From NCBI GenBank assembly GCA_903873295.1, contig CAIQNV010000007.1, positions 1 to 35,144 on the forward strand: 35,144 nt of DNA, read 5' to 3'. The first letter of the stretch is position 1. Each line of letters starts with the position of its first letter. This stretch comes from an uncultured Elusimicrobia bacterium. GTDB lineage: Bacteria > Elusimicrobiota > Elusimicrobia > Elusimicrobiales > UBA9959. The notes beneath the pieces were generated by a model that did no database searches, was not told where the DNA came from, and saw only the letters and a list, made by a program, of their open reading frames with translations. Shown here piece after piece: positions 6,154 to 34,278 of this stretch. Position numbers and translations under genes: made by a program.

Positions 6154-6216
6154 GATTTGGGGACAGGGGGGATTTGGGGACAGTATATTTAATTCGGAAT
6201 TCTATATACTGTCCCC
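6154..6216. repeat. REP-like palindromic repeat (GGGGACAGTATAT family)
   Basis: A 13-nt arm GGGGACAGTATAT (6176-6188) is matched exactly by its complement at 6204-6216. Inside it an AATT/AATT pair closes a 3-nt loop, giving a near-complete hairpin. The unit GATTTGGGGACAG occurs twice as a direct repeat (6154-6166 and 6171-6183), so a partial second copy abuts it. This shape resembles REP elements moved by REP-associated tyrosine (Y1) transposases; no transposase is in the window. The right arm overlaps the 3' end of the radical SAM gene and supplies its stop. Confidence 0.75.
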
Positions 6217-7206
6217 GGAATTCCCACAATGGGGGCCGTCCTGGGCGGCAGGGGCTTGGGGAAAGAGGGCGGCTTGGCGGGAGCGGAAGGCGGGGTCGTT
6301 CAGCGGGCAGTCTTCGGCGCCCCTGAACTCCCGGTACATGGGCGAGGCCCACAGGCGCTTTACTATCGGGAGCAGCGCCTCCTTCCTGATATTCCCGAAC
6401 GGCACCGGGAAATAAGTGCAGGGCACCACGTCGCCGGCGGCCGTGATATCCACCTTCCAGCGGTCAAAAGAAGAACAGACAAAAACGGCGGCCGGGTTAT
6501 CCACCGGCCCTATTACCCAGTGGACTTTGCCGGGCTTAAGCAAAGCGCGTAAGAGCGCGCGGTCTTCGGCGGTAAGCACTTCGTCCGGATTTGAGTCCCA
6601 GCGGCCCGCCCTCATCGGCGAGAGAAGCCGCAGGCGCGCGCCCAGCCCGGCCGCTATCTCCGCCATTTTTGCCGCCCTGCCGTCCCGCAGGCGCTCTTTG
6701 GTGGCGCAGAAAGAAATATCCACCGGCACGCCCAGCTTGACAAGGTTCCGCGCCGCGCCGGCCGCTTTTTCCCAGAGGCCGGGCACCCCGCGTTCCCGGT
6801 CGTGGCTCTCCGGCTCGGGGTCGTCCAGACTTATGCCGGCTAAATTCAGGCCCGCTTCGGCCAGTCCGGCGGCGGCCGGCCCGTCCAGCAATAAACCGTT
6901 GGTGGTAAGGGAGGCGCGCAGGCCGCTACGGCGGGTAAAGCGGATAAGCTCCGGCAGGTCGCCGCGCAGCAGCGGTTCCCCGCCGAAAAAGCTTGCTTCC
7001 CGCGCGCCCAGCCGCGCGGCTTCGGTTATCAATCCCTTTATTTCTTCGCCGGTCAGCTCCGGCCCGGTAGACGCCCCGCCGCCGCTCACGGCGCAGCGCG
7101 CGCAGGCGCATTGGCAGCGGCGGGTGACGGAAAGCATTATGGTCGCACCGAAAAGCGGCCTGAATATTCTTATCAGGTCCCGGGCGAGCGCACGCGGGCC
7201 GGTCAT
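6202..7206 (-). CDS. SPASM-like radical SAM protein, paralog 1 (334 aa)
   Basis: Radical SAM enzyme; substrate unknown. The [4Fe-4S]-SAM motif is C31-x3-C35-x2-C38 with an extra C33, preceded by the island's signature PLFGATIMLS. FFGGEPLL is the SAM-binding GGE motif and TTNGLLLD the next strand. An auxiliary-cluster tail reads C-x18-C-x36-C with FGNIRKE between, as in SPASM/twitch domains. The start at 7206 was chosen because it gives an ATGA overlap with the stop of the upstream paralog, showing translational coupling. The same frame is open further upstream only as a shadow of that paralog. The N-terminus is about 30 residues shorter than in its siblings. The last codons (NSGDSI) and the stop lie in a REP-like palindrome. 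Confidence 0.85.
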   Translation of the reverse strand: MTGPRALARDLIRIFRPLFGATIMLSVTRRCQCACARCAVSGGGASTGPELTGEEIKGLITEAARLGAREASFFGGEPLLRGDLPELIRFTRRSGLRASLTTNGLLLDGPAAAGLAEAGLNLAGISLDDPEPESHDRERGVPGLWEKAAGAARNLVKLGVPVDISFCATKERLRDGRAAKMAEIAAGLGARLRLLSPMRAGRWDSNPDEVLTAEDRALLRALLKPGKVHWVIGPVDNPAAVFVCSSFDRWKVDITAAGDVVPCTYFPVPFGNIRKEALLPIVKRLWASPMYREFRGAEDCPLNDPAFRSRQAALFPQAPAAQDGPHCGNSGDSI

Positions 7207-8267
7207 CCGGGGCCGCCTTTTCCGCCGTCGGGCGGGTTCCCGCTCCGGGCCAGGAACGAAGGGGCGTTGAGAGGGCAGCCGTCGAACTCCGCCTCCGGCG
7301 CGAAAACATCGGCGTCCCACATGCGCCTGACCGCTGCGACGAGCGGCTCCGTGCGGATATTGCCGAAAGGCTCCGGGAGGTAAGGGCAGGATAAAATATC
7401 GCCGTAGGCGGAGACGTCGAAAGTGCTGCGCAGGAGGGTGTGGCAGCGGAAAGGGGCGCCGGGCCGGTCCAGGAATTCGTAGCCCCAGCAGGCCACGCCG
7501 CGGCGCAGGCGCGAGCGCAGGAGGTCCGTCTCTTCTTTGGTGAGAGGGATGTCTTCGCGGTCCTTCCATAGCCCCGCGCGCACCGGCGGCAGAACGCGCA
7601 GCCCGGCGCCAAGCTCCACGGCCAGCCCGGCCATGCGGTCGAACTCGCCGGAGCGGAGGCTTTCGCGGCTGGCGTAATAATTTATGAGCGTGCGTACGCC
7701 CGCCGCCCGGCAGGCCCGCAGGGCCGCGGCGGCCTTGTCCCAGGCTCCCGGCACGCCCCTGAACTTGTCGTGGGAGGCCGCGTCCGGGCTGTCGAGACTG
7801 ACGCGCACGCTTCCCGCTCCGGCGCGGGCCAGCTGCGCGGCCAGGGCCTCGTCGAGAAGCAGGCCGTTGGTTTCCACTGTGACGTTCAGCCCCAGCCTTG
7901 AGGCTTCCGCCACGTGGCCGACGAGGTCCGGGGCCAGCAGGGGTTCGCCCCCGAAAAAATGAACGCCGGTACCGCCGGCGGCCCGCAGATCGCGCAGGAG
8001 CCCGCGCACCTCCTCCGCCGAAAGCTCTTTCTCGCCGTCTTTTTTGAAGAGGCCCGCGCCGCAGTGGCGGCAGGAGCACTGGCAGCGGTAGGTGAGCGAG
8101 ATCAGCGCCGTGGCGCCGAAAAGCGGTTTTATTCTGCGGGCCAGCGGGAGGCCGTTCCTCAGGGCGAAATAAAGAAGGCGCACGAAGAGCGGATGGCCGG
8201 CGTAAGAGCGCAGGACGCGGCGCAGAGCGGTCACATTAAGTAAATTTCCCGGCGCGGGCATGGGCAT
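7203..8267 (-). CDS. SPASM-like radical SAM protein, paralog 2 (354 aa)
   Basis: Radical SAM enzyme of unknown substrate. An amphipathic, basic N-terminal region (about 12-50, with LLYFALRNGLPLARRIKPLF) may lie on the membrane. It is followed by the core motif RCQCSCRHCG (cluster ligands C62, C66, C69, with extra C64). HFFGGEPLL and ETNGLLLDE are the second and third core motifs, and RVSLDSPD the next strand. The tail has C-x18-C-x36-C with YGDILSC and FGNIRTEP, a SPASM-like auxiliary cluster site. A GGAG ribosome site lies 8 nt before the ATG. It sits 15 nt after the gene for paralog 3 and overlaps paralog 1 by 4 nt, so all are one leftward operon with the B12-type rSAM gene. Confidence 0.87.
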   Translation of the reverse strand: MPMPAPGNLLNVTALRRVLRSYAGHPLFVRLLYFALRNGLPLARRIKPLFGATALISLTYRCQCSCRHCGAGLFKKDGEKELSAEEVRGLLRDLRAAGGTGVHFFGGEPLLAPDLVGHVAEASRLGLNVTVETNGLLLDEALAAQLARAGAGSVRVSLDSPDAASHDKFRGVPGAWDKAAAALRACRAAGVRTLINYYASRESLRSGEFDRMAGLAVELGAGLRVLPPVRAGLWKDREDIPLTKEETDLLRSRLRRGVACWGYEFLDRPGAPFRCHTLLRSTFDVSAYGDILSCPYLPEPFGNIRTEPLVAAVRRMWDADVFAPEAEFDGCPLNAPSFLARSGNPPDGGKGGPG

Positions 8268-8282
8268 GAGTAAAACTCCGGT

Positions 8283-9332
8283 TCAGCAGGTCCTGTCCGT
8301 GTTAAGCAGATGGCCGTGGCGTTTTATAAAATCCGCGTCGTTCATCGGGCAGTCGAAATGCCTGGAGCCCTCTTTGAACATCCCGGAGCTCCACATCCGC
8401 TTTACTATGGTTTCGAGCGGCTCTTTGCGGATATTGCCGAAGCCGGCCGGCAGGTAAGCGCAGGCCAGCACTTCGCCGTAGGCCGAAACGTCGAACTTAT
8501 TGCCCAGCATGGAGTTGCACCAGAACGGCACGCTCTTATGACTGAGAAATTCCGTTTCCCAACAGACGTCCGGCGCCAGCAGGCCGCGCAGCTTTGCGAT
8601 CTCGGGCTCCGAAAGGCGCACCTCCCCGTTCTCTTTCCAGCGGCCGCTCTGTATGGCGGACAGGAAGCGCACGCCCACGCCCAGCTCGCGGGCCAGGGCT
8701 ATCAGCTTTTCAAAATCGCCGCTGGCCAGATTCTCTTTGGTCGCGTAGAGCGACATGAAGCAGGGGATGCCGTGCCTGACGCAGAGACGGATGCCCTCGG
8801 TCGCTTTGCGCCAGCAGCCTTTTATCCCGCGGTGCGCGTCGTGCTCCTCCTCGCGCGGGCTGTCCAGGCTGACGCGGATCAGGTCGATGCCGGCCTCCTT
8901 CAGCCCGAGCGCCATGGGCTCGTCGAGCAGAAGGCCGTTGGTGTCCACGGTGGCCATCAGGCCCAGGGCCTTGGCCCGGGCCACGTATTCGGCCAGGTGC
9001 GGCGCCAGCAGGGGCTCGCCGCCGAAGAAGTGGACGCAGGCCCCGCCCAGGCGGGCCAGGTCGTCCATGAACTTTAAAATTTCGGCGGGGCTCAGCTCGC
9101 CTTCGGCCTGCTTCGGGTATTTGCCGGCGCCGCAATGCGGGCAGCTGCACTGGCAGCGGTAGGAAAGCGAGAGTATGGCCGTCACGCCGTAGAGCGGCGT
9201 GAACTTTCTTATGAAGGGCAGGACGGTGCGAAAATAAAAAGCGGTAAAGCCGATAAACCAGGCTGTTCCGTAAAACCGTTTTGTGACGGAGCGGAGCCTG
9301 AAAGTGACCTGGTTTAGAATTCTGGAAAGCAT
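8283..9332 (-). CDS. SPASM-like radical SAM protein, paralog 3 (349 aa)
   Basis: Radical SAM enzyme of unknown substrate. The N-terminal 45 residues are hydrophobic and basic (FRLRSVTKRFYGTAWFIGF), again suggesting membrane contact. Core ligands are C60, C64 and C67 (with extra C62) in SYRCQCSCPHCG. HFFGGEPLLAP and DTNGLLLDEP follow, then RVSLDSP. The tail shows C-x18-C-x36-C with FDVSAYGEVLAC and FGNIRKEPL. It starts 6 nt after the stop of the B12-type rSAM gene and has no clear ribosome site. TACAAT 8 nt before the ATG (9341-9346) could act as an internal promoter. It is very similar to paralog 2 and to the first half of the 15004 fusion, so the set arose by duplication. Confidence 0.87.
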   Translation of the reverse strand: MLSRILNQVTFRLRSVTKRFYGTAWFIGFTAFYFRTVLPFIRKFTPLYGVTAILSLSYRCQCSCPHCGAGKYPKQAEGELSPAEILKFMDDLARLGGACVHFFGGEPLLAPHLAEYVARAKALGLMATVDTNGLLLDEPMALGLKEAGIDLIRVSLDSPREEEHDAHRGIKGCWRKATEGIRLCVRHGIPCFMSLYATKENLASGDFEKLIALARELGVGVRFLSAIQSGRWKENGEVRLSEPEIAKLRGLLAPDVCWETEFLSHKSVPFWCNSMLGNKFDVSAYGEVLACAYLPAGFGNIRKEPLETIVKRMWSSGMFKEGSRHFDCPMNDADFIKRHGHLLNTDRTC

Positions 9333-9338
9333 TTTAAG

Positions 9339-10814
9339 TTATTGTATCATTTTGCTTTTCGCGTCCGGCCGGGCGGGCGCGGGTTCTTTTGCGGAGCACA
9401 GCCGCCCGAGCCCGCCGAGGAGCGCCCGGGTGGCCGCGCGCAGGAGGCTGCCGGCTCCGAAATGCCTCAGAAGCCCCAGTATCTTAGAAGGGCTGGCGTG
9501 CGCGACCAGCATGGCCCTGCGTTGGAGGCGGGCGAGCTCCGCCGGCCCCATCCCGTTCACCTCCATCATGCCTCCCGCGTAGCGTGAAAAGCCGCCGGTG
9601 CCGGCGCTCAGGAGTTTCAGCCCGTGCAGGCCCTGTTCCGCCATCCGGCGAAGCTCGGTGCCGGGATAGGGAACGGCGATGGCGAAGGGCGAGTAGCGTA
9701 TTTCCGGGGTGGCGCGCACGAACCGCGCTGTGGCCATCACGGTTTCCCGCGTGTCGCCCGGATTGCCGAGCATGGACGCCACGGTGGTGGAGATCCCGAG
9801 CCCGCGGCAGAGGCGCAGCGCGGTCCTCACTTCCTCGGGGGTCACGCCTTTGCGCATAAGGAGGAGCGCGTTCGGGTCCACGCTCTCCAGGCCGAAGTTA
9901 AGGCGCACCAGCCCCGCTTCCCGCAGCAGGGCCAGCAGGGGCCCGTCCACCAGATTCGCGCGGGTCTGCCCCTCAAAAGTGACCCCGGCCTTCCGCCTTA
10001 TCAGTTCGCGGCAAAGCCCTTCTATGCTCCCGCGGTCCGCGGTAAGCGTCGAAGCCACCAGGCCGAAATGCGCTGCGCCGAACTTCGCCTTGGCGTCCAG
10101 GATATCCTCGACGACGCGCGCCGGGGACCGGGACCGGAGCTTCCTGCCGTTATAGACGCCCTCGCCGCAGAATACGCAGTTAAAGGGGCAGCCGCGGGAA
10201 AGCTCAGCCAGAAATACAGGCACTACGCCCAGGCCGGGCACTTCGAAAGAATACCGGGACGGGGAGATCTTGCCGCGGGAGGGGAAAGGAAGGGAGTCGA
10301 GATTCTCCAGGAAGGGGCGCGGCTGGTTCACCCGCACCGAGGAGCCTTCCCGCCAGACCAGGCCTTTTATTCCGGCGTAGGCGCGCCGCCCCTCGAGCTC
10401 CCGCGCCAGCTCCACGAGGGTTGCTTCGCCTTCGTTGAACACCGCGAAATCCATATCAGGCGAAAGGGCTTCTTCCCTGAGCGCGGTGACATGGGCGCCG
10501 CCGACGACGATAGGAAGCCCGAACCGCTCTTTCAGCCGGCGCGCGTAGGAGGCCGCCACGGGATAGACCGGGGTGGTGGCGGTGAGGCCGATCATGCCGG
10601 GGCTGAAATTTTTAATGCGCGCGCACAAGTCTTCAAAGGACTGCGGCTCGACCTCCAGGTCTATCAGGTCGACGGCGTGGCCGGCCTTCTCCAGGCTGGC
10701 CGCGAGGCTCATAAGTCCGAGGGGGGGGAAGCTCGTGAAGGCCCTGTAAACGGCGGCGTAGTTCCCTTCGGAGGCGGAGGTCCACGGTACCTGGATGAGC
10801 GTGAATTTCCCCAT
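9339..10814 (-). CDS. B12-binding-domain radical SAM protein (491 aa)
   Basis: Belongs to the large class of radical SAM enzymes with an N-terminal cobalamin-binding (Rossmann) domain, which includes methyltransferases and ring- or bond-forming enzymes. Residues about 1-150 are the B12-type domain: FPPLGLMSLAASLEKAGHAV, MIGLTATTPVYPVA and PIVVGGAHVT. No DxHxxG motif is seen, as in many members. The rSAM motif is SRGCPFNCVFCGEG (C209, C213, C216). Downstream are LNFGLESVD and VPYPGTEL, typical of the family. It is the first gene of the leftward operon, with a perfect TATAAT box 5 nt before the ATG. The C-terminal 60 residues (MLVAHASPSKILGLL) are basic and hydrophobic. Substrate unknown. Confidence 0.88.
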   Translation of the reverse strand: MGKFTLIQVPWTSASEGNYAAVYRAFTSFPPLGLMSLAASLEKAGHAVDLIDLEVEPQSFEDLCARIKNFSPGMIGLTATTPVYPVAASYARRLKERFGLPIVVGGAHVTALREEALSPDMDFAVFNEGEATLVELARELEGRRAYAGIKGLVWREGSSVRVNQPRPFLENLDSLPFPSRGKISPSRYSFEVPGLGVVPVFLAELSRGCPFNCVFCGEGVYNGRKLRSRSPARVVEDILDAKAKFGAAHFGLVASTLTADRGSIEGLCRELIRRKAGVTFEGQTRANLVDGPLLALLREAGLVRLNFGLESVDPNALLLMRKGVTPEEVRTALRLCRGLGISTTVASMLGNPGDTRETVMATARFVRATPEIRYSPFAIAVPYPGTELRRMAEQGLHGLKLLSAGTGGFSRYAGGMMEVNGMGPAELARLQRRAMLVAHASPSKILGLLRHFGAGSLLRAATRALLGGLGRLCSAKEPAPARPDAKSKMIQ

Positions 10815-10819
10815 GCCAT

Positions 10820-10825
10820 ATTATA
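10820..10825 (-). promoter_or_regulatory. Candidate -10 box of the leftward rSAM operon
   Basis: On the minus strand a perfect TATAAT lies 5 nt before the ATG at 10814. No ribosome site fits in between. Transcription from it would begin at or next to the ATG, so a leaderless mRNA is expected. No clear -35 box was recognised. Confidence 0.5.
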
Positions 10826-10862
10826 ACCAAAAAAACTGCGCTTGCCGGAGGGAAAACAGCAG

Positions 10863-10962
10863 CGGGCCGGGCATGGGGTTGCTTTGGAGCCGCTTTGGGG
10901 ATTCGGGGGGAACCGCGCAACGGTTCCTGCGCGGCGGAATGGGCAACCCCATGACTGGCCCG
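10863..10962. repeat. Large imperfect inverted repeat between divergent rSAM operons
   Basis: A 20-nt arm (10863-10882, containing GCATGGGGTTGC) pairs with 10943-10962 (GCAACCCCATG) with 18 of 20 positions matching. A second, inner pair CCGCGCA/TGCGCGG (10913-10919 and 10928-10934) makes a nested hairpin. The 100-nt structure fills the gap between the divergent promoters. It could be a small mobile palindrome or a control element for both operons; the sequence alone does not decide. Confidence 0.6.
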
Positions 10963-11021
10963 TCCCCAGACTAAACCCGGAAGCTACAGTATAAGATTTA
11001 AGCCCGGCGCCATTTGCGCTA

Positions 11022-11036
11022 TGCTAAAATTATAGA
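11022..11036 (+). promoter_or_regulatory. Candidate promoter of the rightward rSAM operon
   Basis: TGCTAAAAT (11022-11030) is an extended -10 form and TATAGA (11031-11036) an alternative. The ATG is at 11042, 11 or 5 nt later, with no Shine-Dalgarno sequence. A leaderless or nearly leaderless transcript is likely. No clear -35 box. Confidence 0.4.
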
Positions 11037-11041
11037 CGCTT

Positions 11042-13588
11042 ATGAAGACAGTTTTTGTGCGCGCGGCCACCGAGAGCCTGGGCCTGGAATATCTTTCCTC
11101 GGCGCTGAAGGCCCGCGGCCATTCGGCGGAGCTGGTCTACGAGCCCCTCCTTTTTGATTCTTTCAGGCTGAGGCTGCCGTTCCTCGAGCCGGACAGCGCG
11201 AAGTCCGCCGCCCGCAAAGCCCTGGGCTTAAAGCCCGGGCTTATAGGTTTCTCCGTGGATTCCGACCATTTTCAATGGGCGCTGGCGGCTGCGCGCGAGG
11301 TAAAGCGCCTGAGCCGCGTCCCCGTTATTTTCGGCGGCGTGCACCCCAGCACCGCCCCGGAAGCCGTCCTGGCGCGGCCGGAAGTGGACCTGCTTTGCGT
11401 GGCCGACGGAGAGCGGGCCATAGTCGAGCTGGCGGATAAACTGGAGCGCGGACAGCCTCCGGAGGGCATAGCTAATATCTGGTTCAAAAAGAACGGCGCG
11501 CCCGTCAAGACCCCGGTCAGGCTGGAAACCGGGCTGGACTCCCTGGCTTTCCCGGACAAGGACCTTTTCTACGGGGAATATCCCGGCTTCGTCCTTGACA
11601 CTTATTCCATCGTCACCGGCCGGGGCTGTCCCAACGCCTGCACTTACTGCTACAACAGTTCCATGCGCCGCACCCTGTCCCGGCTGGGCTGCCGGGACGC
11701 TTTTCTCAGGCGGCGGAGCGTGAAGAACGTCATTTTGGAATTGCTGGCCGCTAAAAAAAACAGGGCCTTCCGCAGGGTCTCTTTCTGCGACGATCTTTTT
11801 ATCTCCGATAAGGCCTGGCTGGAGGAATTCGCGGCGGTTTACCCCCGGGAGATAGGCCTGCCCTTTTTCTGCAATATCCATCCGGCCGACGCCGACGAGC
11901 GCGCCGTGGAACTGCTCAGGGCCGCGGGAGCGACCGCGGTGAACATGGGCGTGCAGACCGTAAGCGCGGAGCTGAGGCGGGAATGCCTGGGCCGCGAGGA
12001 GAGCACGGAAGCCGCGGTGAGCGCGCTGCGGCTGCTGGACCGCGCCGGCATTTTCGCCTACACTAATTTTATCTTCGGCCTCCCCGGGCAGGACGACGAG
12101 GAGCTTGCGCGCGCCGCCGGCTTCGCGGCCGCCAACCCGGCCGGCTTCCACGACGTGAACTGGCTCAGGTATTACCCCGGCACCGCCCTGCTCGACAGGG
12201 CCCGCGCCTCGGGCCTCATCGCGGAGGCGGCGGCCGCGGCGGTGGAGGACGGCAGCTTCGCCGTGCCTTACGGGCAGGGCGGACACAGCTATACCCCGGA
12301 GCGCGCGCGCCTGCGCAATATGGTGTTCCTGGCGTCGCTTTTGCCGCGTAAAATTTCAGAGGGCCTGCTGGAGAAAGGGCTCTGGAAATTCCTGCCGGCT
12401 TTCAGCCTCCGCCTGCCGGCCATAGCCGCCCGCGCCCTGCTGGCGCGGCTGAGGGGCAATCCTAATCCTTATCCTAATTTTTCCCTGCTGGGCAGCCTGC
12501 GCTATTTCCTGCGGTATTTTTTTCGCTCCTATCTCGCGCGGGCGGCGCAGCGTTCACTTCTTGTTTTCAGGCGGGTTTTCGTCAGGGCGCGGGGAGCGCT
12601 GTTCCTGGCCGGGCTGCTGGACCTGCGCCGGGCTTTCAGGTACGCCGCTTATTTCTTCAGGCGCCGGCTGCTTGGCGGAAGGGTGCCGGGCATGGCGGCC
12701 TTCGCGGCCACTTTCGGCTGTCAGTGCGCCTGCGCGGCCTGCTCTTCCAAAACCTTTGAAAAACATTTCGGCGCAAAAGTTATGGACAAGGAAAAAGCTC
12801 TGGCCCGGGCCGGAGAGCTGGCCGCTTTGGGCGTGCCGAGGATACATTTTACCGGGGGAGAGACCACGCTGGTCCCCTATCTGGAAGAGCTGGCCGCGGC
12901 CTGCGCCGGCGCCGGAATGACCGTGTTCGTGGAGACTAACGGCATCGGTTTGACGAGGGAAAAAATCCTGGGCCTGAAGCGGGCGGGGATAGCCTGCCTG
13001 AACATAAGCCTGGACTCCGCTTCGCCGGAGACGCACGACGGCGTCCGGAAAGCCGCAGGCTGCCACGCCGCGGCCGTAAACGCGCTGAAATTATGCGGTG
13101 AGCTCGGCCAGAAATGCCTGGTCTCGTGCTACGCCACCAGGGAAACCGCGGCCGACGGGTCGCTGGCCGGTCTGCTGGCCGCCGCTTTCGCCGCAGGCGC
13201 CGGGGCGGCGCGTATCCTTCCTCCCGTCGCCTCCGGCGGCTGGACGGACAGCTTCGAGGCGCTGGTCCTTGAGCCTTCGGACCGCGAAGCCGTGCTGGAG
13301 GCCGCGTACGCCGCGCCCGGGCCCGTGCTGGACAGGACCGCCGTGGTGGACTGCGAGCTGGCTTCCGCCTATAAAATAATGGTACTGCCCGACGGCAGTC
13401 TTGCGCCCTGCGAACATCTGCCGTATATCTTCGGCGGTTCGCGGGAGCTGAGCGTGGAGGCCGCGCTCCTAAAGATGGCCGCCTTCCCCCTGTTCCGCGA
13501 AAAGACCAAATGCTGGCCCAGGAATCAAGCCTGGCGCGCGGCCCACCCGGAGGCCTCCTCCGGGAAAATCCAGTATCTAGATATTTAG
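11042..13588 (+). CDS. Fusion of two radical SAM enzymes: B12-type plus SPASM-like (848 aa)
   Basis: Two complete rSAM units lie in one polypeptide. Residues 1-150 form a B12-binding-type domain (LEYLSSALKARGH, VPVIFGGVHPS). The first rSAM motif is GRGCPNACTYCYNS (C196, C200, C203), followed by NMGVQTVS and FIFGLPGQ. Residues about 430-545 are a basic, aromatic linker (LRYFLRYFFRSYL) that looks membrane-seeking. The second rSAM motif is FGCQCACAACSS (C560, C564, C567, extra C562), with HFTGGETTL, ETNGIGL and NISLDSA. The tail is C-x18-C-x33-C. The second half is homologous to the stand-alone SPASM-like genes of the island, where GGEPLL reads GGETTL here. Such a fusion suggests two successive radical steps on one substrate. 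No frameshift or internal stop is present; product unknown. Confidence 0.85.
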   Translation: MKTVFVRAATESLGLEYLSSALKARGHSAELVYEPLLFDSFRLRLPFLEPDSAKSAARKALGLKPGLIGFSVDSDHFQWALAAAREVKRLSRVPVIFGGVHPSTAPEAVLARPEVDLLCVADGERAIVELADKLERGQPPEGIANIWFKKNGAPVKTPVRLETGLDSLAFPDKDLFYGEYPGFVLDTYSIVTGRGCPNACTYCYNSSMRRTLSRLGCRDAFLRRRSVKNVILELLAAKKNRAFRRVSFCDDLFISDKAWLEEFAAVYPREIGLPFFCNIHPADADERAVELLRAAGATAVNMGVQTVSAELRRECLGREESTEAAVSALRLLDRAGIFAYTNFIFGLPGQDDEELARAAGFAAANPAGFHDVNWLRYYPGTALLDRARASGLIAEAAAAAVEDGSFAVPYGQGGHSYTPERARLRNMVFLASLLPRKISEGLLEKGLWKFLPAFSLRLPAIAARALLARLRGNPNPYPNFSLLGSLRYFLRYFFRSYLARAAQRSLLVFRRVFVRARGALFLAGLLDLRRAFRYAAYFFRRRLLGGRVPGMAAFAATFGCQCACAACSSKTFEKHFGAKVMDKEKALARAGELAALGVPRIHFTGGETTLVPYLEELAAACAGAGMTVFVETNGIGLTREKILGLKRAGIACLNISLDSASPETHDGVRKAAGCHAAAVNALKLCGELGQKCLVSCYATRETAADGSLAGLLAAAFAAGAGAARILPPVASGGWTDSFEALVLEPSDREAVLEAAYAAPGPVLDRTAVVDCELASAYKIMVLPDGSLAPCEHLPYIFGGSRELSVEAALLKMAAFPLFREKTKCWPRNQAWRAAHPEASSGKIQYLDI

Positions 13589-13608
13589 GTGCGCCGGGCG
13601 TATAAAGT

Positions 13609-14922
13609 ATGAATTTAAGAGAAAGGATCATATTCAAGGCGGGCGAACTGCTCTATCCTGGCTTCGGCAGAGAGGCCGCGGCTTTCGGCGGGGGCGAGGC
13701 GGCTCCGCTTCTGAAACTGAACGCTTTATTGGCGCACGCGCGCAGGCACCTTCCCGCCTATGACGCCGCCTGCGCGTCCGCCGGGGTGGGGCCGTCAGGA
13801 CTGGCCGCCATCGAGGACGCCGGGAGGCTGCCCCGGCTTGAGAGGGGAGACCTTGCGCGAAAGGCCAACCGTATCCGGGAAGGGCGCTCCCTGGCGCGGC
13901 TGGAAAGCGGAGGCACGGGCCGCTCGGGCAAAGTGGAGACGGCGCTGGACCTGCGCGGAGTCGTTAAAAGATACGCCGGGCTCCTGTCCGTGCTGAAGAC
14001 GGCCGGCTGGCGCATGGGGGAGAAGATAGTCGCTTTTCACCCCGTGGAATACGGCTACTTCAATAACCTCGGCCTGCTGCTGCGGAGCCGGGCTTTTACG
14101 AAGATCCTGTTCGAGTTTTTTCAGCAGTATTTCCTCTACAGGCTTTTTCATAACAGAAAAAATATTCACTACGGGGCGGAGCTCTTCACTAGCCCGGAGG
14201 CGGCCGCGGCGCTGCTGGAAAAAGCGCTGGCGGAAAACCCCTTGTTCATAATAACCCGGCCGGACGCGCTGATGGCCGTCCTTAAAAGCCTGAGGAACCG
14301 CCCGGCTCCGGGTTTCGGACGGCTCAAAGCCGTGTTGACAGTGGGCACGGTGCTGGGGGAAACGGTGAGAAAAGAGGCCCGGGAAAAGCTCGGCGCCGAA
14401 GTGTACAATATGTACGCTTCCACCGAGCTGGGCTATGTGGCTCTCGGCTGCGCCCGCCCGGAGGGCCGGCTGCACGTCAACGAGGCCGATTATCTGGCGG
14501 AGACGGATGGAGAGCGGGGGCTGACCGTGACGGATTTTAATAACCGGCTGATGCCCATGCTGCGCTACGGGACGGGAGACGTCGGCGAGCTCTCGGCGGG
14601 CGGCTGCGCCTGCGGCCGCCGCGGGCAACTGCTGCGGGTGCTTGGCAGGAAAGATAAATTCATAAAGGACGGGCGCGGGGACCGGCTCTACGAGGCGGAC
14701 GTGATAGACCGGACCTTCCCTGCTGACCTGCCGCTTTTTCAACTGCTCGCGGGAAAAGAAGACAAGCTCGAGATACTTTTCAGCGGCGGCAGCCCGCGGG
14801 CCGACGAGGCCGCGGCTGCCGGTATCGCCGGCCTACTGAGTCTCGATAAAGGCGCTTATGTTTTCAGCAGGGCTGAAAGTTTTAAAATGCCCGCCTCGGG
14901 AAAATTCTGCTTCCTGCCGTGA
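13609..14922 (+). CDS. PaaK/CapK-like adenylate-forming enzyme (437 aa)
   Basis: Resembles phenylacetate-CoA ligase and CapK/coenzyme F390 synthetase-type proteins, which activate a carboxylate as an acyl-AMP and pass it to a thiol or amine. The phosphate loop is ESGGTGRSGK (99-108). The adenine/acyl site is YNMYASTELG (266-275). RYGTGD (319-324) holds the ribose-binding Asp, and GRKDKFIKDGRG (346-357) is the hinge. A C-x-CGR stretch (333-337) is usual in PaaK relatives. The C-terminal domain is short. It lies 20 nt after the rSAM fusion and 81 nt before the rSAM-methyltransferase fusion, so it probably activates or transfers an acid made or modified by the rSAM enzymes. No carrier protein gene is nearby. 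The ATG at 13609 has no strong ribosome site. Confidence 0.82.
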   Translation: MNLRERIIFKAGELLYPGFGREAAAFGGGEAAPLLKLNALLAHARRHLPAYDAACASAGVGPSGLAAIEDAGRLPRLERGDLARKANRIREGRSLARLESGGTGRSGKVETALDLRGVVKRYAGLLSVLKTAGWRMGEKIVAFHPVEYGYFNNLGLLLRSRAFTKILFEFFQQYFLYRLFHNRKNIHYGAELFTSPEAAAALLEKALAENPLFIITRPDALMAVLKSLRNRPAPGFGRLKAVLTVGTVLGETVRKEAREKLGAEVYNMYASTELGYVALGCARPEGRLHVNEADYLAETDGERGLTVTDFNNRLMPMLRYGTGDVGELSAGGCACGRRGQLLRVLGRKDKFIKDGRGDRLYEADVIDRTFPADLPLFQLLAGKEDKLEILFSGGSPRADEAAAAGIAGLLSLDKGAYVFSRAESFKMPASGKFCFLP

Positions 14923-15003
14923 AGCCGGAAAGAGGAACTGCGGCGAACAGAAACGGAAATGATAAAATAATCTGCCCGGCAGCGGCCGGCAGCCTGCGAG
15001 CTT

Positions 15004-16791
15004 ATGAATAAATCTTTTTCAGCCGCGACCGCGCTCAATAACCTGGTCAAGAACCAGTTGGGCCGCCGGCTGCGCCCCTTCATCGATACGCGGGCGGTAA
15101 GAGCTCTCATCGTCGGCTACCAGCGCTGGCTTCAGCCGGCCGTCCGCCGCGTGTATCCGCTCTTCGGCGTTACCGTGATGATCGGCCTCACCTATAAATG
15201 CCAGTGCCGCTGCGTGCATTGCGGCACCGTCCCCTATCGCGATCCGGAAAGGTCCGAGCTGAGCGAAGCGGAAGTCGTAGAGCTTATGAGTCAGGCCGGC
15301 GCCCTGGGCGCGGGGGGAGTTTCCTTTTTTGGCGGCGAGCCTCTGCTGGCGAAAGGACTTTTAGAAATGGTGAGGGCGGCCAAGTCGCTGGGGCTGCTGG
15401 CGACTTTGGACACCAACGGCCTTCTGTTGGACCGGGACCTGGCCCGCAGCCTGGCGGAGGCCGGACTGGACCGCATCGGCGTGAGTCTGGACAGCGCCGA
15501 CGAGGCCGAGCATGACCGCCTCCGTCAGACGCCGGGGGTTTACCGCGCCGCTCTGAACGCCATCGGGTTTTGCCGGGACGCCGGGATAGACGTGTTCCTT
15601 TCCACCTACGCCACGGGCGAGAGCCTGCGCGACGGCGGCCTCGACCGCATTATCGCCATCGCCCGCTCGCTCGGGGTGAGGACAAGGGTCCTTTCGCCCC
15701 TGCGCGCGGGCAAGTGGCTCAAGCGGGACGACGTCGGCCTGAGCCCCGGCGAGGTCGCCCTGCTGCGCTCGCGCCTGTCCGGCGAGGTTTACTGGGAATC
15801 CGTTTTTTTAACCTCGCCCGAGCGCCCTTTTATGTGCAGCTGCGCCTCGCGCACGCATTTTTACGTGTCGCCGTACGGCGACGTGCAGCCCTGCTGTTAT
15901 ATGCCGCTTTCTTTCGGGAACGTGCGTGAGGAGCCCATGAAGCGCATCGTGAAGCGGATGTGGGGCTCGGCCATGTTCGCCTCCCTCGATTCCAGCGTCG
16001 ATTGCCCGATGAATTCGCCGCGCTTCCGCGAGGTTTTCGGCCCCGTTCTTTCCAGGCCCGGCCCCGGCCCCCATCCGGCGGAGCTCGCGTCCTCTCCCAA
16101 CGATCCCCGGGAATGGGACGAGTGGGCCGGAGAGTATGCCCGGGACGTGGATTGGCTGGAAGAGATCCATAACAGGGACCTGGCGGCGCTGCTGCCTTCC
16201 GAAGGTAAAAAAGTGCTGGACGCCGGCTGCGGGACGGGGCGCAGGTCGCGCGCTCTCTTCGGCCGGGCGGCCCGGCTTACGGCGGTGGATTCTTCCAAAG
16301 GCATGGTCAAAGCGGCCAAAGAAGCGCTCGCCCTTCTGCCGCAGGCCGAAGTGCTGGAGCTCGATATAGAGCAAGGCGGACTTCCCCGGGGCGAATTCGA
16401 CGCGGTTCTCGCGGTGTCGGTGCTGCACCATATCCGGAACGCGGAGGCGGCGGTCCGGAACCTCGTAGACAGCATGGCGCCGGGCGGCACGCTGGTGATA
16501 ATAGACGCCGTCGCCGGCCAACCCGGGCCTGCGGCGCTCCGCTATTACCTGGAGCTGCTTTTCCGGCACAGCCCGCTGCGCCTCTTCCGGGCTTTCCTGG
16601 ACGCCTTCTTTTCAGACACGCGGGTCGCGCGCCATAAGAGGCGCGAGGTCCCTCTCACTTTCGAGGAGTTCCGCCGCCGCTACGCGCCGCTGCTGCCCGG
16701 CGCGGCCGCCGAAGTCCGCCACGGCATCTTCGCCTACCTCGTCTGGCGCAAGCCCGGCGGGGCGTCTCCCGGCGCGGCGCTAAAGAACTGA
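15004..16791 (+). CDS. Radical SAM (SPASM-like) - class I methyltransferase fusion (595 aa)
   Basis: Residues 1-350 form a SPASM-like radical SAM unit: a basic N-terminus, then TYKCQCRCVHCG (C66, C70, C73, extra C68), FFGGEPLL, DTNGLLLD and GVSLDSAD. The C-x18-C-x36-C tail includes SPYGDVQPCCYMP and FGNVREEP. After a short linker, residues about 370-590 form a class I SAM-dependent methyltransferase. Its motif I is VLDAGCGTG (from residue 404), with LTAVDSSKGM for the acidic ribose ligand and LAVSVLHHI, the pattern of UbiE/COQ5-like enzymes. One protein therefore uses SAM both for radical chemistry and for methyl transfer. The first half is closest to the stand-alone paralogs on the other strand. 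It probably belongs to the same operon as the adenylate-forming gene. Confidence 0.86.
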   Translation: MNKSFSAATALNNLVKNQLGRRLRPFIDTRAVRALIVGYQRWLQPAVRRVYPLFGVTVMIGLTYKCQCRCVHCGTVPYRDPERSELSEAEVVELMSQAGALGAGGVSFFGGEPLLAKGLLEMVRAAKSLGLLATLDTNGLLLDRDLARSLAEAGLDRIGVSLDSADEAEHDRLRQTPGVYRAALNAIGFCRDAGIDVFLSTYATGESLRDGGLDRIIAIARSLGVRTRVLSPLRAGKWLKRDDVGLSPGEVALLRSRLSGEVYWESVFLTSPERPFMCSCASRTHFYVSPYGDVQPCCYMPLSFGNVREEPMKRIVKRMWGSAMFASLDSSVDCPMNSPRFREVFGPVLSRPGPGPHPAELASSPNDPREWDEWAGEYARDVDWLEEIHNRDLAALLPSEGKKVLDAGCGTGRRSRALFGRAARLTAVDSSKGMVKAAKEALALLPQAEVLELDIEQGGLPRGEFDAVLAVSVLHHIRNAEAAVRNLVDSMAPGGTLVIIDAVAGQPGPAALRYYLELLFRHSPLRLFRAFLDAFFSDTRVARHKRREVPLTFEEFRRRYAPLLPGAAAEVRHGIFAYLVWRKPGGASPGAALKN

Positions 16792-16818: not shown

Positions 16819-17517
16819 GTGACCAAAAGTAAACCAGAAAATACGATCCTCCGCCTGGCCTCTATATTTGCGACAGCCCTGGGGCCGTTCATTCTTCTGT
16901 CGGCTTACCTGCGTCCCGGGCAGGTCCCGCTTCTCCTTGCCGCGGCGGGCTATCTGTGTTTAGCCGGGGGCTTATGCGGCATATTTTACTGGCTGAAATA
17001 CCGGCGGAATGAAGAGCTTGTCAGGGCCGCTTTGGCGCTCGGCGGTTTCGCGGTCGCCGATCCCGGGCGGAACAAGCCCGACGGCAAGTACGACGTGAAA
17101 GGGGTAGTCAACGGCGTGGAAATGTGGCTGAACGGCATGGATTTCAGCTCAAAAGATAACGGGCCCTGCCTCGAACTGGAGATCCTCTGCAAAGTGGCCA
17201 ACAGGCTTAACGCGCGCCTGACGGTGTATCCCTCGGGATTTCTATACAAGCCGCTGTTCGCCTCGCTGCCTCCAAAAATAGAATATGTTCCGTATTGGGA
17301 CTGGTACGCTATCCATTCGGAACCCGCCGGGGCGGCGGAAAAACTTCTTTCCGGCGCCCGTCTCAACGGGATCAAAACGGTATTTCAGGATAAGTACGGC
17401 TTTAAACTTCTCGAACTGAAAGGCGACAGGCTCCGCTGTGTTTTTAAACACGCGCTCGGCCGCAAATATCTCAGGGAAACTACCGGCCAGGTGGCCATAC
17501 TGGCCGCTTCGATTTGA
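16819..17517 (+). CDS. Membrane-anchored protein of unknown function (232 aa)
   Basis: I do not recognise a family. Two N-terminal membrane segments (about 11-29 and 36-58, ending GIFYWLKYRRNEE) are followed by a soluble domain of about 170 residues, probably cytoplasmic by the positive-inside rule. The soluble part alternates hydrophobic strands with charged turns (VVNGVEMWLNGMDF, LELEILCKVANRLNARLTVYP) and ends AILAASI. GTG is the start, because AAGGA lies about 8 nt upstream. It begins 27 nt after the rSAM-methyltransferase gene, and its stop overlaps the possible TTG start of the next gene. It is therefore part of the rightward rSAM transcript. A role as scaffold or membrane partner is only a guess. 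Confidence 0.65.
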   Translation: MTKSKPENTILRLASIFATALGPFILLSAYLRPGQVPLLLAAAGYLCLAGGLCGIFYWLKYRRNEELVRAALALGGFAVADPGRNKPDGKYDVKGVVNGVEMWLNGMDFSSKDNGPCLELEILCKVANRLNARLTVYPSGFLYKPLFASLPPKIEYVPYWDWYAIHSEPAGAAEKLLSGARLNGIKTVFQDKYGFKLLELKGDRLRCVFKHALGRKYLRETTGQVAILAASI

Positions 17518-19253
17518 AAAGGCTGAACAAAGATCTACAGATGGACGAAAACCCGGATACTTTTTCTTTGAGCGGCAGGCTCTGGCTGGCCGCCGGCGTT
17601 CTGGCCGCGCTGGGCGCCATCGCCATGCCGGTCCTGAACCCGGACCTTTTCTGGCACCTCTCCGCCGGAAAATACATGAAAGAATTTCTCCGCCTGCCGT
17701 CGGCTGATTTTCTGTCCTGGACGGAGCGGGGGGCGCCCTGGGCCGATTTTGAATGGCTGGCGCAGGTTCTTTATTATGCCGTTTATTCGCTGGCCGGCAA
17801 AGCCGGTTTTTTCGCGCTGAAAATGGTCGTGCTCGCCGCCACTTTCCCGGTATTCTACGCGATCCTTTCTCTTAACGGCCTGAAGCGCGCCGCTTTTTTC
17901 GCGCTGCCCGTCTGGGCGCTGGCGCTCATGGCCAACTCGGACCTGCGCCCGGAAAATTTCAGCGTCCTCTTTTTCTCTCTCCTGCTTTGGCGGCTGGAAG
18001 CCGCGCGCCTCTCCGGGAAAATATGGCCGGCCTCGCCGGGAGCTTTTCTCCGGCTCGCGGCCTTTTTCGCGCTCTGGGCCAATCTCCACGCGGGCTTCGC
18101 CTACGGGCTGCTGCTGCTGGCGTTTTACGCCGCGGGGGGCCGGGCGGACCGGAAACTGTGGCCGTCCGTAGGGCGGGAGCCTGGCTGGGGCCCCGCGCTG
18201 GCCGTGCCGGCGGCGGTTGCCGGCTCGCTGCTGAACCCCTGGGGCTTCAAGCTGTATTCCATACTTCTCCAGCACGCGGTCCAGTCCGGCGCCATGACGC
18301 GCTACCTCGCCGAATGGGCGCCGCCCTCCTTCGCCAATCCCTGGCATTGGCCTTTCATGGCTTTCCTCCTGGTTTCTTTTTCACTCCTGCTGAAGCGGTT
18401 CCTCAAAGAGCGCTCTCTCCCGCTGGCGCAGCTGTTTACCCTGGGCTGGCTGGCTTTCGAAGCCTCGCGGCATACGAGGCATATAGTTTTCTTCTCGCTG
18501 GCGGCCGCCGTTTATTCTTTCGACTCCGCCTCGCGCCTGTGGAGCCCGGCGGCGCTGCGCCGCGGCGGGCGCTTTATCTTCGGCCTGGCGCTGGTTTATC
18601 TCTCCCTGCTGGTCTGGCCGCGCTATCTCGCTTTAAAGATGAATCTCGGCGAGGAGGCGGCCGGCGCCGCCGCCTATCTTAAAGCCAGCTCGCGCGAACT
18701 GGGCGGCCGGAAGCTCTACAATCCCTGGACCTGGGGCGGCTACCTGGGCTGGGCGCTGAACCCGGAGTATCTGGTTTTCACGGACGGCAGATACATCTTT
18801 CATAAATACCTCGAGCCCGTCAGCGCCGCCATGGCCGACCAGGACACCTGGGAAAAGTTCGCCGTCGAGCGCGGCTTTGAACTGGCGCTTTTTCGCCGCG
18901 ATTATCAGCTGCTGCCCTTTCAGCGGACCGGGCGGAAGGGAGGCGGGGCGACGGTCTTAAGGCCCTCCTATCTGCTGTTCATGCCCGAAGAAAAATGGGC
19001 GCTGGTATACTGGGACGCTTTTTCGGTCCTTTTCGCCCGCAGGGGAAGGCCGGTCCCGGCCGAATTCAAGATCGTACGCCCGGATGATTTTGAAAATGTG
19101 AAACTGGAGCTTTGTTCCGGCGCCCTTGCGCGGAAGGCCGCCGAGGCCGAGCTGGAGCTTTACCGGGGCGCCGCCGCCGGAGCCCCTTCAAGAAAGGAGG
19201 CGGACCGCTTCAGGACCTGGCTTGAAGGTTTCCCCGCCGCCTGTCCGCGGTGA
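17514..19253 (+). CDS. Polytopic membrane protein, GT-C glycosyltransferase-like (579 aa)
   Basis: About ten membrane segments fill residues 20-380, followed by a soluble C-terminal part. The start NPDLFWHLSAGKYMKE, then WTERGAPWADFEWLAQ, matches the acidic first-loop pattern of GT-C-fold membrane proteins that use lipid-linked sugars. The GGYLGW and LVFTDGRYIFHKY stretches after the last membrane segment recur in that group. Catalytic activity is not shown. The start could be TTG at 17514, overlapping the previous stop, or ATG at 17541 in the same frame; I cannot choose firmly because neither has a good ribosome site. As the last gene of the rightward run it may glycosylate or move a lipid-linked product of the rSAM island, which is inference. 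Confidence 0.65.
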   Translation: MKRLNKDLQMDENPDTFSLSGRLWLAAGVLAALGAIAMPVLNPDLFWHLSAGKYMKEFLRLPSADFLSWTERGAPWADFEWLAQVLYYAVYSLAGKAGFFALKMVVLAATFPVFYAILSLNGLKRAAFFALPVWALALMANSDLRPENFSVLFFSLLLWRLEAARLSGKIWPASPGAFLRLAAFFALWANLHAGFAYGLLLLAFYAAGGRADRKLWPSVGREPGWGPALAVPAAVAGSLLNPWGFKLYSILLQHAVQSGAMTRYLAEWAPPSFANPWHWPFMAFLLVSFSLLLKRFLKERSLPLAQLFTLGWLAFEASRHTRHIVFFSLAAAVYSFDSASRLWSPAALRRGGRFIFGLALVYLSLLVWPRYLALKMNLGEEAAGAAAYLKASSRELGGRKLYNPWTWGGYLGWALNPEYLVFTDGRYIFHKYLEPVSAAMADQDTWEKFAVERGFELALFRRDYQLLPFQRTGRKGGGATVLRPSYLLFMPEEKWALVYWDAFSVLFARRGRPVPAEFKIVRPDDFENVKLELCSGALARKAAEAELELYRGAAAGAPSRKEADRFRTWLEGFPAACPR

Positions 19254-27925: not shown

Positions 27926-28627
27926 ATGAACGAGAAGATACTTATTGTTGAGGATGAAAAGGATATAGCCAGGATGCTGGACTATAACCTAAAAAAGGAG
28001 GGCTACCGCACCGTGCTGGCGCATGAGGGGTCCTCCGCGCCGCTGCTGGCCGCAAAAGAGCGCCCTCAACTGATACTGCTGGACCTGATGCTGCCCGGCC
28101 TGGACGGGCTGGAGGTCTGCCGCCGCATCAAGATGGACGCGAAGACCGCCTCTATCCCGATAATAATGCTTACCGCCAAGGGCGAAGAGTCGGATAAAGT
28201 AGTCGGACTTGAGATGGGCGCCGATGATTACGTTACAAAACCGTTCAGTATTAAGGAACTTATATCGCGGGTGAAAGCCGTGCTGAGGCGGGCGGCCGTC
28301 TGCGGCGAGGCCCTTGAATTTTACAGAGCTGGCGACCTTGAACTTGATTGCTCGCGTGTGCTGGCGCTGGTTAAAGGAAAGCCGGCGGACCTTACCGCCC
28401 GCGAATTTGAGCTTTTAAAAGCCCTGATGGCCGCCGGGGGGAGAATGCAGTCGCGCGCGGCCCTGCTGGAGAAGGCCTGGGGGCTGGACGCCTCTCTTGA
28501 GGTGGAGACCCGCACCGTGGACGTGCATATAGGCACGCTGCGCAAAAAACTCGGCGCGGAGGGCCGCCGCTTAGTGACCGTAAAAAACTACGGCTACAGG
28601 TTCGAGGCGGGAAACAGCCCTAAATGA
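27926..28627 (+). CDS. phoB: PhoB-like OmpR-family response regulator
   Basis: A DNA-binding regulator of 233 residues. The receiver has ILIVEDEKD, phosphorylated D53 in LILLDLMLPGLDG, IIMLTAKGEE and GADDYVTKPFS. The C-terminal winged helix (about 135-230) shows DLTAREFELLKALMAAGG, the transactivation/recognition segment LLEKAWG and EVETRTVDVHIGTLRKKLG, then VTVKNYGYRFE, the standard PhoB order. It overlaps the kinase gene by ATGA. A phosphate role is inferred from the PAS-type PhoR-like kinase behind it and from the porin and PstS genes downstream. Its DNA was duplicated; a decayed copy lies at 31044-31157. Confidence 0.88.
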   Translation: MNEKILIVEDEKDIARMLDYNLKKEGYRTVLAHEGSSAPLLAAKERPQLILLDLMLPGLDGLEVCRRIKMDAKTASIPIIMLTAKGEESDKVVGLEMGADDYVTKPFSIKELISRVKAVLRRAAVCGEALEFYRAGDLELDCSRVLALVKGKPADLTAREFELLKALMAAGGRMQSRAALLEKAWGLDASLEVETRTVDVHIGTLRKKLGAEGRRLVTVKNYGYRFEAGNSPK

Positions 28628-30399
28628 AATTCTTTTCTACGCTTAAATTCCGGGTTCTGGTTTCGTATGTGCTGGTGGTGCTGTTCGCTCTGGCCGTCAC
28701 CGCATTTTTTCTTGACAGCTTTCTTGAAAGGCAGGCGCTTGACGACCTGCGCGGCTCTATGGGCACGCAGGCCCGGCTGATCGCGGTCCAGCTGGACGCT
28801 GCGCGGCTTATCAAAGAAGACACCGTTGATATTGACGCTCTTGTTAAGAAGCTGGCCAGTAATACCAGCTCCAGAATAACCGTGATTTCCGCCTCAGGGA
28901 GAGTGCTGGGAGATTCTAATCTGCCCTACCCGTTAATGCTCAGGATGGAAAATCATCTTGGCAGGCTAGAGATAAGACAGGCGGGCGGCCGGGACGCCGT
29001 CAGCGTCGTCAGGCGGTCCGGCACCCTTAACGAGGAGATGCTTTACCTTGCCGTTCAGGTGAGAGACGGCGCGCGCCTGGCCGGTTTTGTGCGGTTGTCT
29101 ATGCCTTATCAAGGTGTTCAGCGCATGCTTTCAGAGCTGCGCCGCACCGTGGAATTCAGCTTCGCACTTTCGGCCCTTTTTGCCCTGGCCGTGGGCTGGC
29201 TTGTGGTTTTGTTCATAGGCAGGCAGTTCGGGGAAATAATGACGGGCTCAAAGCGCTTCGCCGAAGGCGATTTCGGCTATCGTATCCCGGTCGGGTCGTC
29301 AGGTGAACTAGGAAGACTTTCAGGGACCCTTAATTACATGGCCGGCGAGATCGGCGCAAAAATCCGAGAGGCCGAACTGCGCCGGCTGGAACTGGAGGCG
29401 GCTTTCCGCGACATGTCCGAGGCCATCGTGGTTACCGACGGCGGCGGTATTATTACGCGCCTGAACCCGCAGGCGCGCCGGCTTATGGGCGTGCGGGGGT
29501 TTGACGCCGAGGGTATGCGCCTGTCCGGCATGCCCGCCGGGCCGGAGTTGTCTTCCGCGGCTATTAAGGCGCTTTCCAGCGGTTTTCCCGTTTCTTTTGA
29601 GATAGAACCGGCGGCCGCTCCGGATACTGTTTTAAGCATAAGCGCGGCCCCCATAGTGGAGAACGGGGTTATAGGCGGCTGCGTGCTGGTGGCCAGGGAT
29701 ATTACCGGGCCGCGTAAGCTTGAGGCCATGCGGCGGGACTTTGTGGCCAATGTTTCGCATGAGCTTAAAACCCCTCTTACCGCCATCAGGGGCTGCGCCG
29801 AAACCCTGCTTAATGGTGCGCTCGAAGACCGGGAACACGGTCCCGGTTTCGCCCGCAGCATACACGAACAGGCGGTGCGGCTGGATAACTTGGTAAACGA
29901 TCTGCTCAAGATCTCTTATGCCGAATCCGGCCGGGCTGTCCTTGAAAAGGCGCCCGTGAATTTAAAACCTCTTGCGGAGGAGATCGTCGTTGAGCTGGCC
30001 GCCATCCTGGAGAAAAAGCATATCAAGCTGCTAAACCTTGTTCCGGAAAACTTTTTGGTGAACGCCGATAAGGACAAGCTTTCGCAGGTTCTTATAAATC
30101 TGGTGGAGAACGCCGCCAAATACAACAGGGAAGGCGGGGAGATTAAAATTTTAACGGAAAAAGAGGACGGCGCGGTTAAAGTTGCGGTGGCGGATAACGG
30201 CCCTGGCATACCTGAAGCTCACCTGCCGAGGATCTTCGAGCGGTTTTACCGCGTCGACAAAGCCCGCTCCCGTGAAATGGGCGGCACCGGCCTGGGGCTA
30301 TCCATCGTTAAACACCTCGTCGAACTGCACGGCGGCAGTATCGGCGTTGAAAGCGCCGAGGGCCGCGGCTCAACGTTCTGGTTCACCCTCCCGGGATAA
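28624..30399 (+). CDS. phoR: PhoR-like sensor histidine kinase, copy 1
   Basis: A membrane kinase of 591 residues. Membrane segment 1 (about 10-30), an extracytoplasmic sensor of about 140 residues, membrane segment 2 (about 178-200), HAMP ([15 protein letters not shown]), PAS ([19 protein letters not shown]), then HisKA with phosphorylated H379 in [18 protein letters not shown]. The ATPase part has [12 protein letters not shown] (N box), VADNGPGIP (G1), [27 protein letters not shown] (F and G2, given as 20-plus residues in two motifs) and a final WFTLPG. Full sensor plus PAS matches the long PhoR type. It is coupled to phoB by a 4-nt overlap. It is closely similar to the kinase at 31157, especially over the last 55 residues. 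Confidence 0.9.
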
Positions 30400-30479
30400 G
30401 CGTCCCAGTATTGAAACTCCGACTTCCTAACGTCAGCATCCCTGCGCGCTGGCACGTCTTTTATTTACACACATTTTAC

Positions 30480-30523
30480 TTTCCCTTAATACCGGCTTTA
30501 AATGGTTTTCTTAAACTATAGTC
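30480..30523 (+). promoter_or_regulatory. Candidate Pho-box promoter, duplicated copy before the chimeric porin ORF
   Basis: Half-sites TTTCCCTTAAT and CCGGCTTTAAA (30492-30502) are followed after 9 nt by TAAACT (30512-30517) and then, 6 nt later, the ATG. The same layout with high identity precedes the full porin at 32979, so the promoter was duplicated with the gene. Spacing of the repeats from the -10 box is like that of PhoB sites, which replace a -35 box. No ribosome site. Confidence 0.45.
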
Positions 30524-30958: not shown

Positions 30959-31043
30959 AGCGGTGGCTGGATAAATTAAATCGGGGCTTTATTCTGGATT
31001 TGGCCGGTTTCCGGTGTAGTCTGTTCCCTATCCGGCTGTGGCT

Positions 31044-31157
31044 GATTCCGGTAAAGATGGAAAAGACATAGCACGGATGATTGAGTATAATCTTAAAAAG
31101 GTTAAGGGACTTGGGCCTGGCGATGATGATTCCGGCAGTCGTTTTGAAAAACACTAA
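31044..31157 (+). pseudogene. Remnant of a duplicated PhoB-like regulator gene
   Basis: The frame read from 31056 gives DGKDIARMIEYNLKK, matching EDEKDIARMLDYNLKK near the start of the regulator at 27926; 36 of 46 bases agree over that stretch. It then jumps to GLGPGDDDSG, resembling GLEMGADDY from mid-receiver, and ends SRFEKH before TAA, like the [10 protein letters not shown] end of the regulator. The stop overlaps the ATG of the second kinase (TAATG), as the true regulator overlaps the first. Large internal deletions removed the phosphorylation site and the DNA-binding domain, so it cannot work as a regulator. No start codon or ribosome site is evident. Confidence 0.75.
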
Positions 31158-32917: not shown

Positions 32918-32934
32918 TTTTACCCGCATTTTAC

Positions 32935-34256: not shown

Positions 34257-34278
34257 ATTAAAACAGGAGAATAAAAAT

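Follow-up and report, generated by a model that had tools for sequence, protein, structure and literature searches.

The locus considered here raises the question of what molecule could be the target of seven radical SAM domains encoded side by side. The window, that is, the whole stretch of DNA analysed (35,144 nucleotides), takes up the whole of contig C7 in the assembly of an Elusimicrobiota genome, and the domains lie between positions 6202 and 16791, in two divergent operons. The nearest named record is GWC2_64_44, at 80% for one of the encoded proteins (S3, described below).

Radical SAM domains of the island and their cysteine signature

The seven radical SAM domains announced by the initial annotation were all found, in intact open reading frames and where it had placed them. 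The minus strand encodes three SPASM-like proteins, S1 (6202–7206; 81% for the orthologue in genome G124), S2 (7203–8267; 87–88% for its orthologue in the same genome) and S3 (8283–9332), together with gene E (9339–10814), the product of which is a B12-binding radical SAM protein. Between the two operons lies a divergent intergenic region (10815–11041), where inspection revealed no convincing precursor peptide ORF. The plus strand carries a B12 radical SAM/SPASM fusion (11042–13588), with its B12-binding half at ~11042–12541 and its SPASM-like half at ~12674–13585, then a PaaK-like adenylate-forming ligase (13609–14922) and finally a SPASM-like domain fused to a class I SAM methyltransferase (15004–16791; SPASM-like part ~15004–16098, methyltransferase ~16111–16788).

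Five of these domains had been credited with a CxCxCx2C motif, and all five indeed have it: CQCACARC in S1, CQCSCRHC in S2, CQCSCPHC in S3, CQCACAAC in the B12 fusion and CQCRCVHC in the methyltransferase fusion. The extra cysteine, which is located in the SAM-binding loop, is rare elsewhere, being present in one of 80 control radical SAM proteins taken from other loci. The tail C-x18-C-x36-C, with x33 in the B12 fusion, is also as described. It is not special to the island, contrary to what its use as an island signature had implied, since the three tail cysteines are invariant in 48 aligned sequences of the wider family, including CNxxC relatives that lack the extra cysteine. The supposedly shared FGNIR is exact in S1, S2 and S3 only; it reads FGNVR in the 15004 domain and FGGSR in the B12 fusion.

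The C-terminal auxiliary-cluster cysteine set comprises up to seven residues in SPASM proteins and fewer in twitch proteins. Judged by Pfam and by the fold matches of S3, the island domains possess the radical SAM core with CX3CX2C by which the SPASM/twitch superfamily is recognized, and they share with BlsE, PqqE, SkfB and AhbD/NirJ this core and possibly the C-terminal Fe–S-type cysteines. Unlike these enzymes, they carry the extra cysteine (CxCxCx2C), have only three tail cysteines, form their own clade and stay under the equivalog cut-offs. The Pfam Radical_SAM model scored 72–87 bits for S1, S2, S3 and the 15004 domain and found a second Radical_SAM stretch in the fusion; the Pfam SPASM model was over its cut-off in S1 and the 15004 domain, under it in S3, and absent in S2 and the fusion. 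No NCBIfam SPASM equivalog (AhbD, NirJ2, GeoRSP, PqqE, MoaA and others) reached its cut-off, the best score being 118.6 bits versus 500, and the domains do not group within a characterized SPASM family.

A tree of 92 rows, built by a quick method with SH-aLRT support only, places S1, S2, S3 and the 15004 domain as paralogues in a 30-row clade in which all members are of the CxC type (support 99), and each of the four has one-to-one orthologues in other genomes. The initial annotation had treated the five domains as one set. This holds for these four, whereas the SPASM-like domain of the B12 fusion branches apart; it falls in a separate clade, and an Omnitrophota protein bearing CQSRC is close to it. 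The copy on contig C133 of the same assembly belongs to a third CxC lineage. The extra cysteine therefore marks lineages and has been gained or lost only a few times, with 4 changes on this tree versus 24 when shuffled.

The structural model of S3 (pLDDT 90.7, pTM 0.90) begins with a two-helix hairpin at the N-terminus, continues with a radical SAM barrel and ends in a SPASM-like tail. Among solved structures, its fold comes closest to those of BlsE, SkfB, PqqE and MoaA; viperin and DesII rank lower, and the matches also include SuiB, EpeE and the lipid radical SAM enzyme GDGT-MAS. BlsE, a nucleoside-sugar decarboxylase, is the best solved match both by sequence and by fold, and several of the fold matches act on nucleotides or nucleotide sugars. 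The N-termini are basic, with a median net charge of +8 versus −2 in controls. The basic charge and the two modelled helices agree with the basic, amphipathic N-termini from which chemistry at the membrane had been proposed, but these features do not show membrane binding.

The larger cluster in related genomes

The island is only part of a larger cluster. In four relatives (G124, G130, G131 and G149), the orthologous module sits within a cluster of 40–55 kb, and the arrangement is seen in part in G125, G126, G138, G139 and G150. In the genome under study, the remaining cluster lies on C133 and a GT-C-like gene, F7, on C103. That so much of the cluster is on other contigs is the main reason why the gene set of the window appeared odd. 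Genes of the neighbour loci were called by codon-position scoring, since longest-ORF calling gave antisense errors in this GC-rich DNA.

The complete cluster encodes about 15 radical SAM proteins, including the products of three HpnJ/BchE-like B12 radical SAM genes. Its sugar genes comprise a relative of the XrtA-type deacetylases, a DegT aminotransferase that in many cases carries a fused radical SAM domain, an SDR and HpnA-like epimerases, and its other members a methyltransferase, a FemAB relative, a FAD enzyme, a DUF2334 deacetylase, a GT28-C protein and a membrane protein with a putative GT-C fold, assigned by modelling. U32-family proteins related to UbiU/TrhP, and thus relatives of oxygen-independent hydroxylases, are repeated members (G000:C133:11594–12493 and 13471–14349; L131:17157–18335). 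Few glycosyltransferases are found within the cluster itself. A 2020 paper on Elusimicrobia is said to describe a nitrogenase-paralogue cluster. That identity is ruled out here: the cluster proteins of 270–370 aa are aminotransferase, radical SAM, methyltransferase and deacetylase proteins, not NifH or NifD.

Several members resemble known families at a distance. With the HpnJ model, gene E scores 127 bits and the best member of the cluster 214 bits, neither reaching the cut-off of 577.6, and the ladderane model TIGR04072, the top-scoring one for the B12-binding half of the fusion, gives 120 bits for gene E and 90.7 bits for the fusion against an equally unreached cut-off of 360. The XrtA-type polysaccharide deacetylase relative matches TIGR03006 (E 4e-54; 183.6 bits, under the cut-off of 276.2), and the FemAB relative matches TIGR03019 (E 2e-28; 99.4 bits, under the cut-off of 260.35). 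For F7, the conserved membrane partner beside the ligase, the model has a pLDDT of 84.5, and Foldseek returned OST, PglB, ALG9, DPY19 and AftA with probability 1.00 and E-values of 1e-5 to 1e-3; this tentative GT-C assignment, for a protein outside the window, comes from a 10-sequence model with TM-scores near 0.5 (~0.45–0.53).

The composition of the module varies in places. The gene found at the position of gene E is strain-dependent, this place being taken by a B12 radical SAM gene, by another B12 radical SAM gene or, in three genomes, by one for a U32 protein, a pattern reminiscent of loci that diversify a surface product. In G150 each half of the B12 fusion is a gene of its own, in G155 the two lie on different contigs, and in G125 and G126 the methyltransferase half of the other fusion occurs unfused. 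Close to the methyltransferase fusion, G126, G130 and G149 encode a 383-aa RidA-fold protein (L130:9725–10876), which we take to be possibly chorismatase-like; it may provide the ligase with an aromatic acid.

The ligase and the fusion orthologue occur in exactly the same 12 of the 341 genomes of the phylum. Eleven of these 12 carriers belong to the genus of the window, of which 21 genomes out of 32 lack both genes. In G150 and G155, the FemAB and ligase genes are adjacent and come after the SPASM half, and an Omnitrophota locus (L013) has SPASM, B12 radical SAM, FemAB, ligase and deacetylase genes in series. Homologous islands in relatives do keep the partner genes together.

More distant CxC relatives were compared by their neighbourhoods. 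At least two sugar-gene classes are present in five of eight such loci versus 0 of 57 control loci, same-locus and syntenic references being excluded; the p value of 7e-6 overstates independence, because synteny links three of the five positive loci to one another. Two of the eight outside loci have no sugar genes and one has only DegT. A B12 radical SAM gene lies near the distant relatives in all eight loci, compared with 6 of 57 controls, in a test that included same-locus references. In G331, G328 and the Omnitrophota locus L014, the CxC protein gene adjoins a B12 radical SAM gene, and genes for transketolase halves, epimerases and GT2 proteins surround the two; some of these loci also contain a GHMP kinase gene, a DegT gene, a nucleotidyltransferase gene or one resembling GDP-mannose dehydratase.

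Split transketolase genes, a GHMP kinase and a PHP-like protein surround the CxC radical SAM gene at L144 (G331), L145 (G328) and L014, the split transketolase genes of G331 forming two pairs, and this split-transketolase sugar cluster is common to Elusimicrobiota and Omnitrophota. In addition, a 3.7-kb contig of a Nanoarchaeota bin (L015) has a CQC SPASM gene adjoining an AMP-ligase-like gene; its presence in an archaeal bin reflects transfer or mis-binning.

Candidate products of the cluster

The explanation that best accommodates these observations, and to which we attach about even chances, is that 6202–16791 constitutes a module for tailoring within a large anaerobic cluster by which a lipid-linked (amino)sugar or a surface glycolipid is made and decorated. 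We infer that the substrate of the module is a lipid-linked sugar. The small number of glycosyltransferases within the cluster, and the three outside loci that show no sugar genes or only DegT, speak against this explanation. The initial annotation had suggested a lipid or lipid-linked product; the sugar enzymes and the protein with the putative GT-C fold point to the lipid-linked form, whereas the membrane argument leaned partly on a gene that belongs to the flank (17514, see below). A precedent exists on hopanoids, where HpnK deacetylates and the radical SAM enzyme HpnJ then rebuilds glucosamine, a B12 radical SAM step after deacetylation being the known order for the BHT cyclitol ether (PMC12583986). 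Genes for a nodB-type deacetylase and FemAB are neighbours in a PEP-CTERM EPS locus (PMC3684757).

By analogy with HpnK followed by HpnJ on hopanoid glucosamine, and with the neighbouring deacetylase and FemAB genes of that EPS locus, the pathway would run as follows, throughout without oxygen. The epimerases, the SDR and the DegT aminotransferase would shape the sugar, and the deacetylase would free an amine. The HpnJ/BchE-like B12 enzymes, together with the CxC SPASM enzymes paired with them, would then act on unactivated sugar carbons, in radical steps that may include methylation, ring rearrangement, dehydrogenation or epimerization; in each SPASM-like domain, the three tail cysteines would hold a predicted auxiliary Fe–S cluster with a free site. 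The PaaK-like ligase would activate a carboxylic acid, which the FemAB-like GNAT protein may transfer to the freed amine, while the fused methyltransferase would add a methyl group and the GT-C protein would transfer the sugar from a polyprenyl carrier.

Part of the same evidence lends itself to other readings. The B12 halves match lipid-associated models (TIGR04072, HpnJ/HpnR), the N-terminal helices are basic, and GDGT-MAS appears among the structural matches, all of which is consistent with a non-sugar membrane lipid, polycyclic or ladderane-like, with the B12 and SPASM enzymes acting on hydrocarbon chains. We nevertheless hold such a product to be unlikely: all the lipid-model matches are far under the curated cut-offs, squalene-hopene cyclase is present in none of the 10 cluster genomes (controls were positive), no fatty-acid synthase or acyl-carrier gene was recognized among the annotated cluster genes, and the CxC relatives are located with nucleotide-sugar genes. 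It is likewise doubtful that the cluster makes a soluble secondary metabolite, be it aminocyclitol-like, nucleoside-like or arylated, to which the sugar genes would supply one moiety. Relatives of FemAB, of GT-C-fold proteins and of XrtA-type deacetylases commonly occur in loci for envelope glycans, and no exporter was recognized among the genes examined, even if the ligase has weak matches to FlxY and BagE/FevW, the RidA-fold protein is encoded near the module in three genomes and BlsE and DesII are close structural matches of S3. As for RiPP maturation, in which the SPASM enzymes would modify a ribosomal peptide, the resemblance of S3 to SkfB, SuiB, PqqE and EpeE would suit it, but the genes abut or overlap, no RiPP-maturase cut-off was reached, and the three gaps contain no convincing precursor ORF, in agreement with the initial annotation. 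We consider this very improbable.

Within the lipid-linked sugar explanation, it is tempting to go further and to propose a new class of anaerobic envelope pathway of Elusimicrobiota and Omnitrophota, in which the CxCxCx2C SPASM subfamily, in tandem and partly fused with B12 radical SAM enzymes, would remodel a lipid-linked sugar at the level of its carbon skeleton, with the extra cysteine serving as a new ligand for the active-site cluster or for the substrate. This extended proposal is speculative and, as a whole, unlikely.

Known systems and the edges of the island

Like the hopanoid genes hpnA, hpnI, hpnK and hpnJ, the cluster joins HpnJ-like B12 radical SAM proteins (214 and 165 bits), HpnA-like epimerases (120–130 bits) and sugar deacetylases. 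Unlike them, it scores below the cut-offs and has many more radical SAM genes, SPASM partners, the ligase and FemAB; with no squalene-hopene cyclase in the 10 cluster genomes, the hopanoid system is ruled out. The XrtA/PEP-CTERM EPS locus is similar in its TIGR03006 deacetylase and TIGR03019 FemAB, of which the cluster has relatives, both under cut-off, but the cluster is dominated by radical SAM genes. The exosortase/XrtA system is also ruled out, exosortase having 0 matches in the genome under study (assembly ~90% complete). The ladderane TIGR04072 protein differs in its setting, no ladderane fatty-acid genes having been recognized here. By the features tested, the cluster is therefore not a hopanoid, ladderane or XrtA system, though it may work like the hopanoid one.

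The enzymes themselves have ordinary radical SAM folds; what is new is the gene set, its density and the CxC subfamily. The remark that no described pathway is known with this make-up agrees with this for the combination; the kinds of enzyme are known, and the set in the window is a cluster fragment. No description of the cluster was found in the open-access literature searched, most subscription papers being outside that search. A conserved cluster with about 15 radical SAM enzymes would amount to unusually dense radical chemistry. If a lipid-linked sugar is the substrate, the single known step of the HpnK/HpnJ type would be extended to a whole tailoring pathway, and its product would be one to seek in uncultured groundwater Elusimicrobiota. 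The one-to-one pairing of ligase and fusion and the FemAB–ligase–deacetylase neighbourhood provide directly testable enzyme pairs.

The left edge of the island is occupied by a dispersed palindromic repeat without assigned strand (GGGGACAGTATATTTAATTC / GAATTCTATATACTGTCCCC; 6176–6216), which overlaps the 3′ end of S1. The pattern, beginning with GGGGACAGTATA, has 8 matches in the genome with at most two mismatches, compared with 0 for the reversed control pattern. We assume the repeat to be of the REP/RAYT kind, and a gene on C103, at ~13.7 kb, presumably encodes a RAYT-like transposase.

On the right, two membrane proteins had been counted as island partners. The 232-aa protein encoded at 16819–17517 (plus strand) has a hydrophobic N-terminus, shows no homologue in the sets compared and is of uncertain cluster membership. 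The membrane protein at 17514–19253 (plus strand) is colinear with the following genes in relatives and conserved apart from the island, in some of them without any island; it is not homologous to the conserved partner F7. It is thus ruled out as the membrane partner of the cluster and belongs to the chromosomal flank outside it. Since the DNA rightward of 17.5 kb is colinear with relatives that lack the module there, either the module has been relocated or the junction was created by the assembly. Farther along, at 27926–35079, the window contains a row of genes that encode two sensor kinases similar to each other, a response regulator, a porin-like protein and a phosphate-binding protein of the PstS-like kind.
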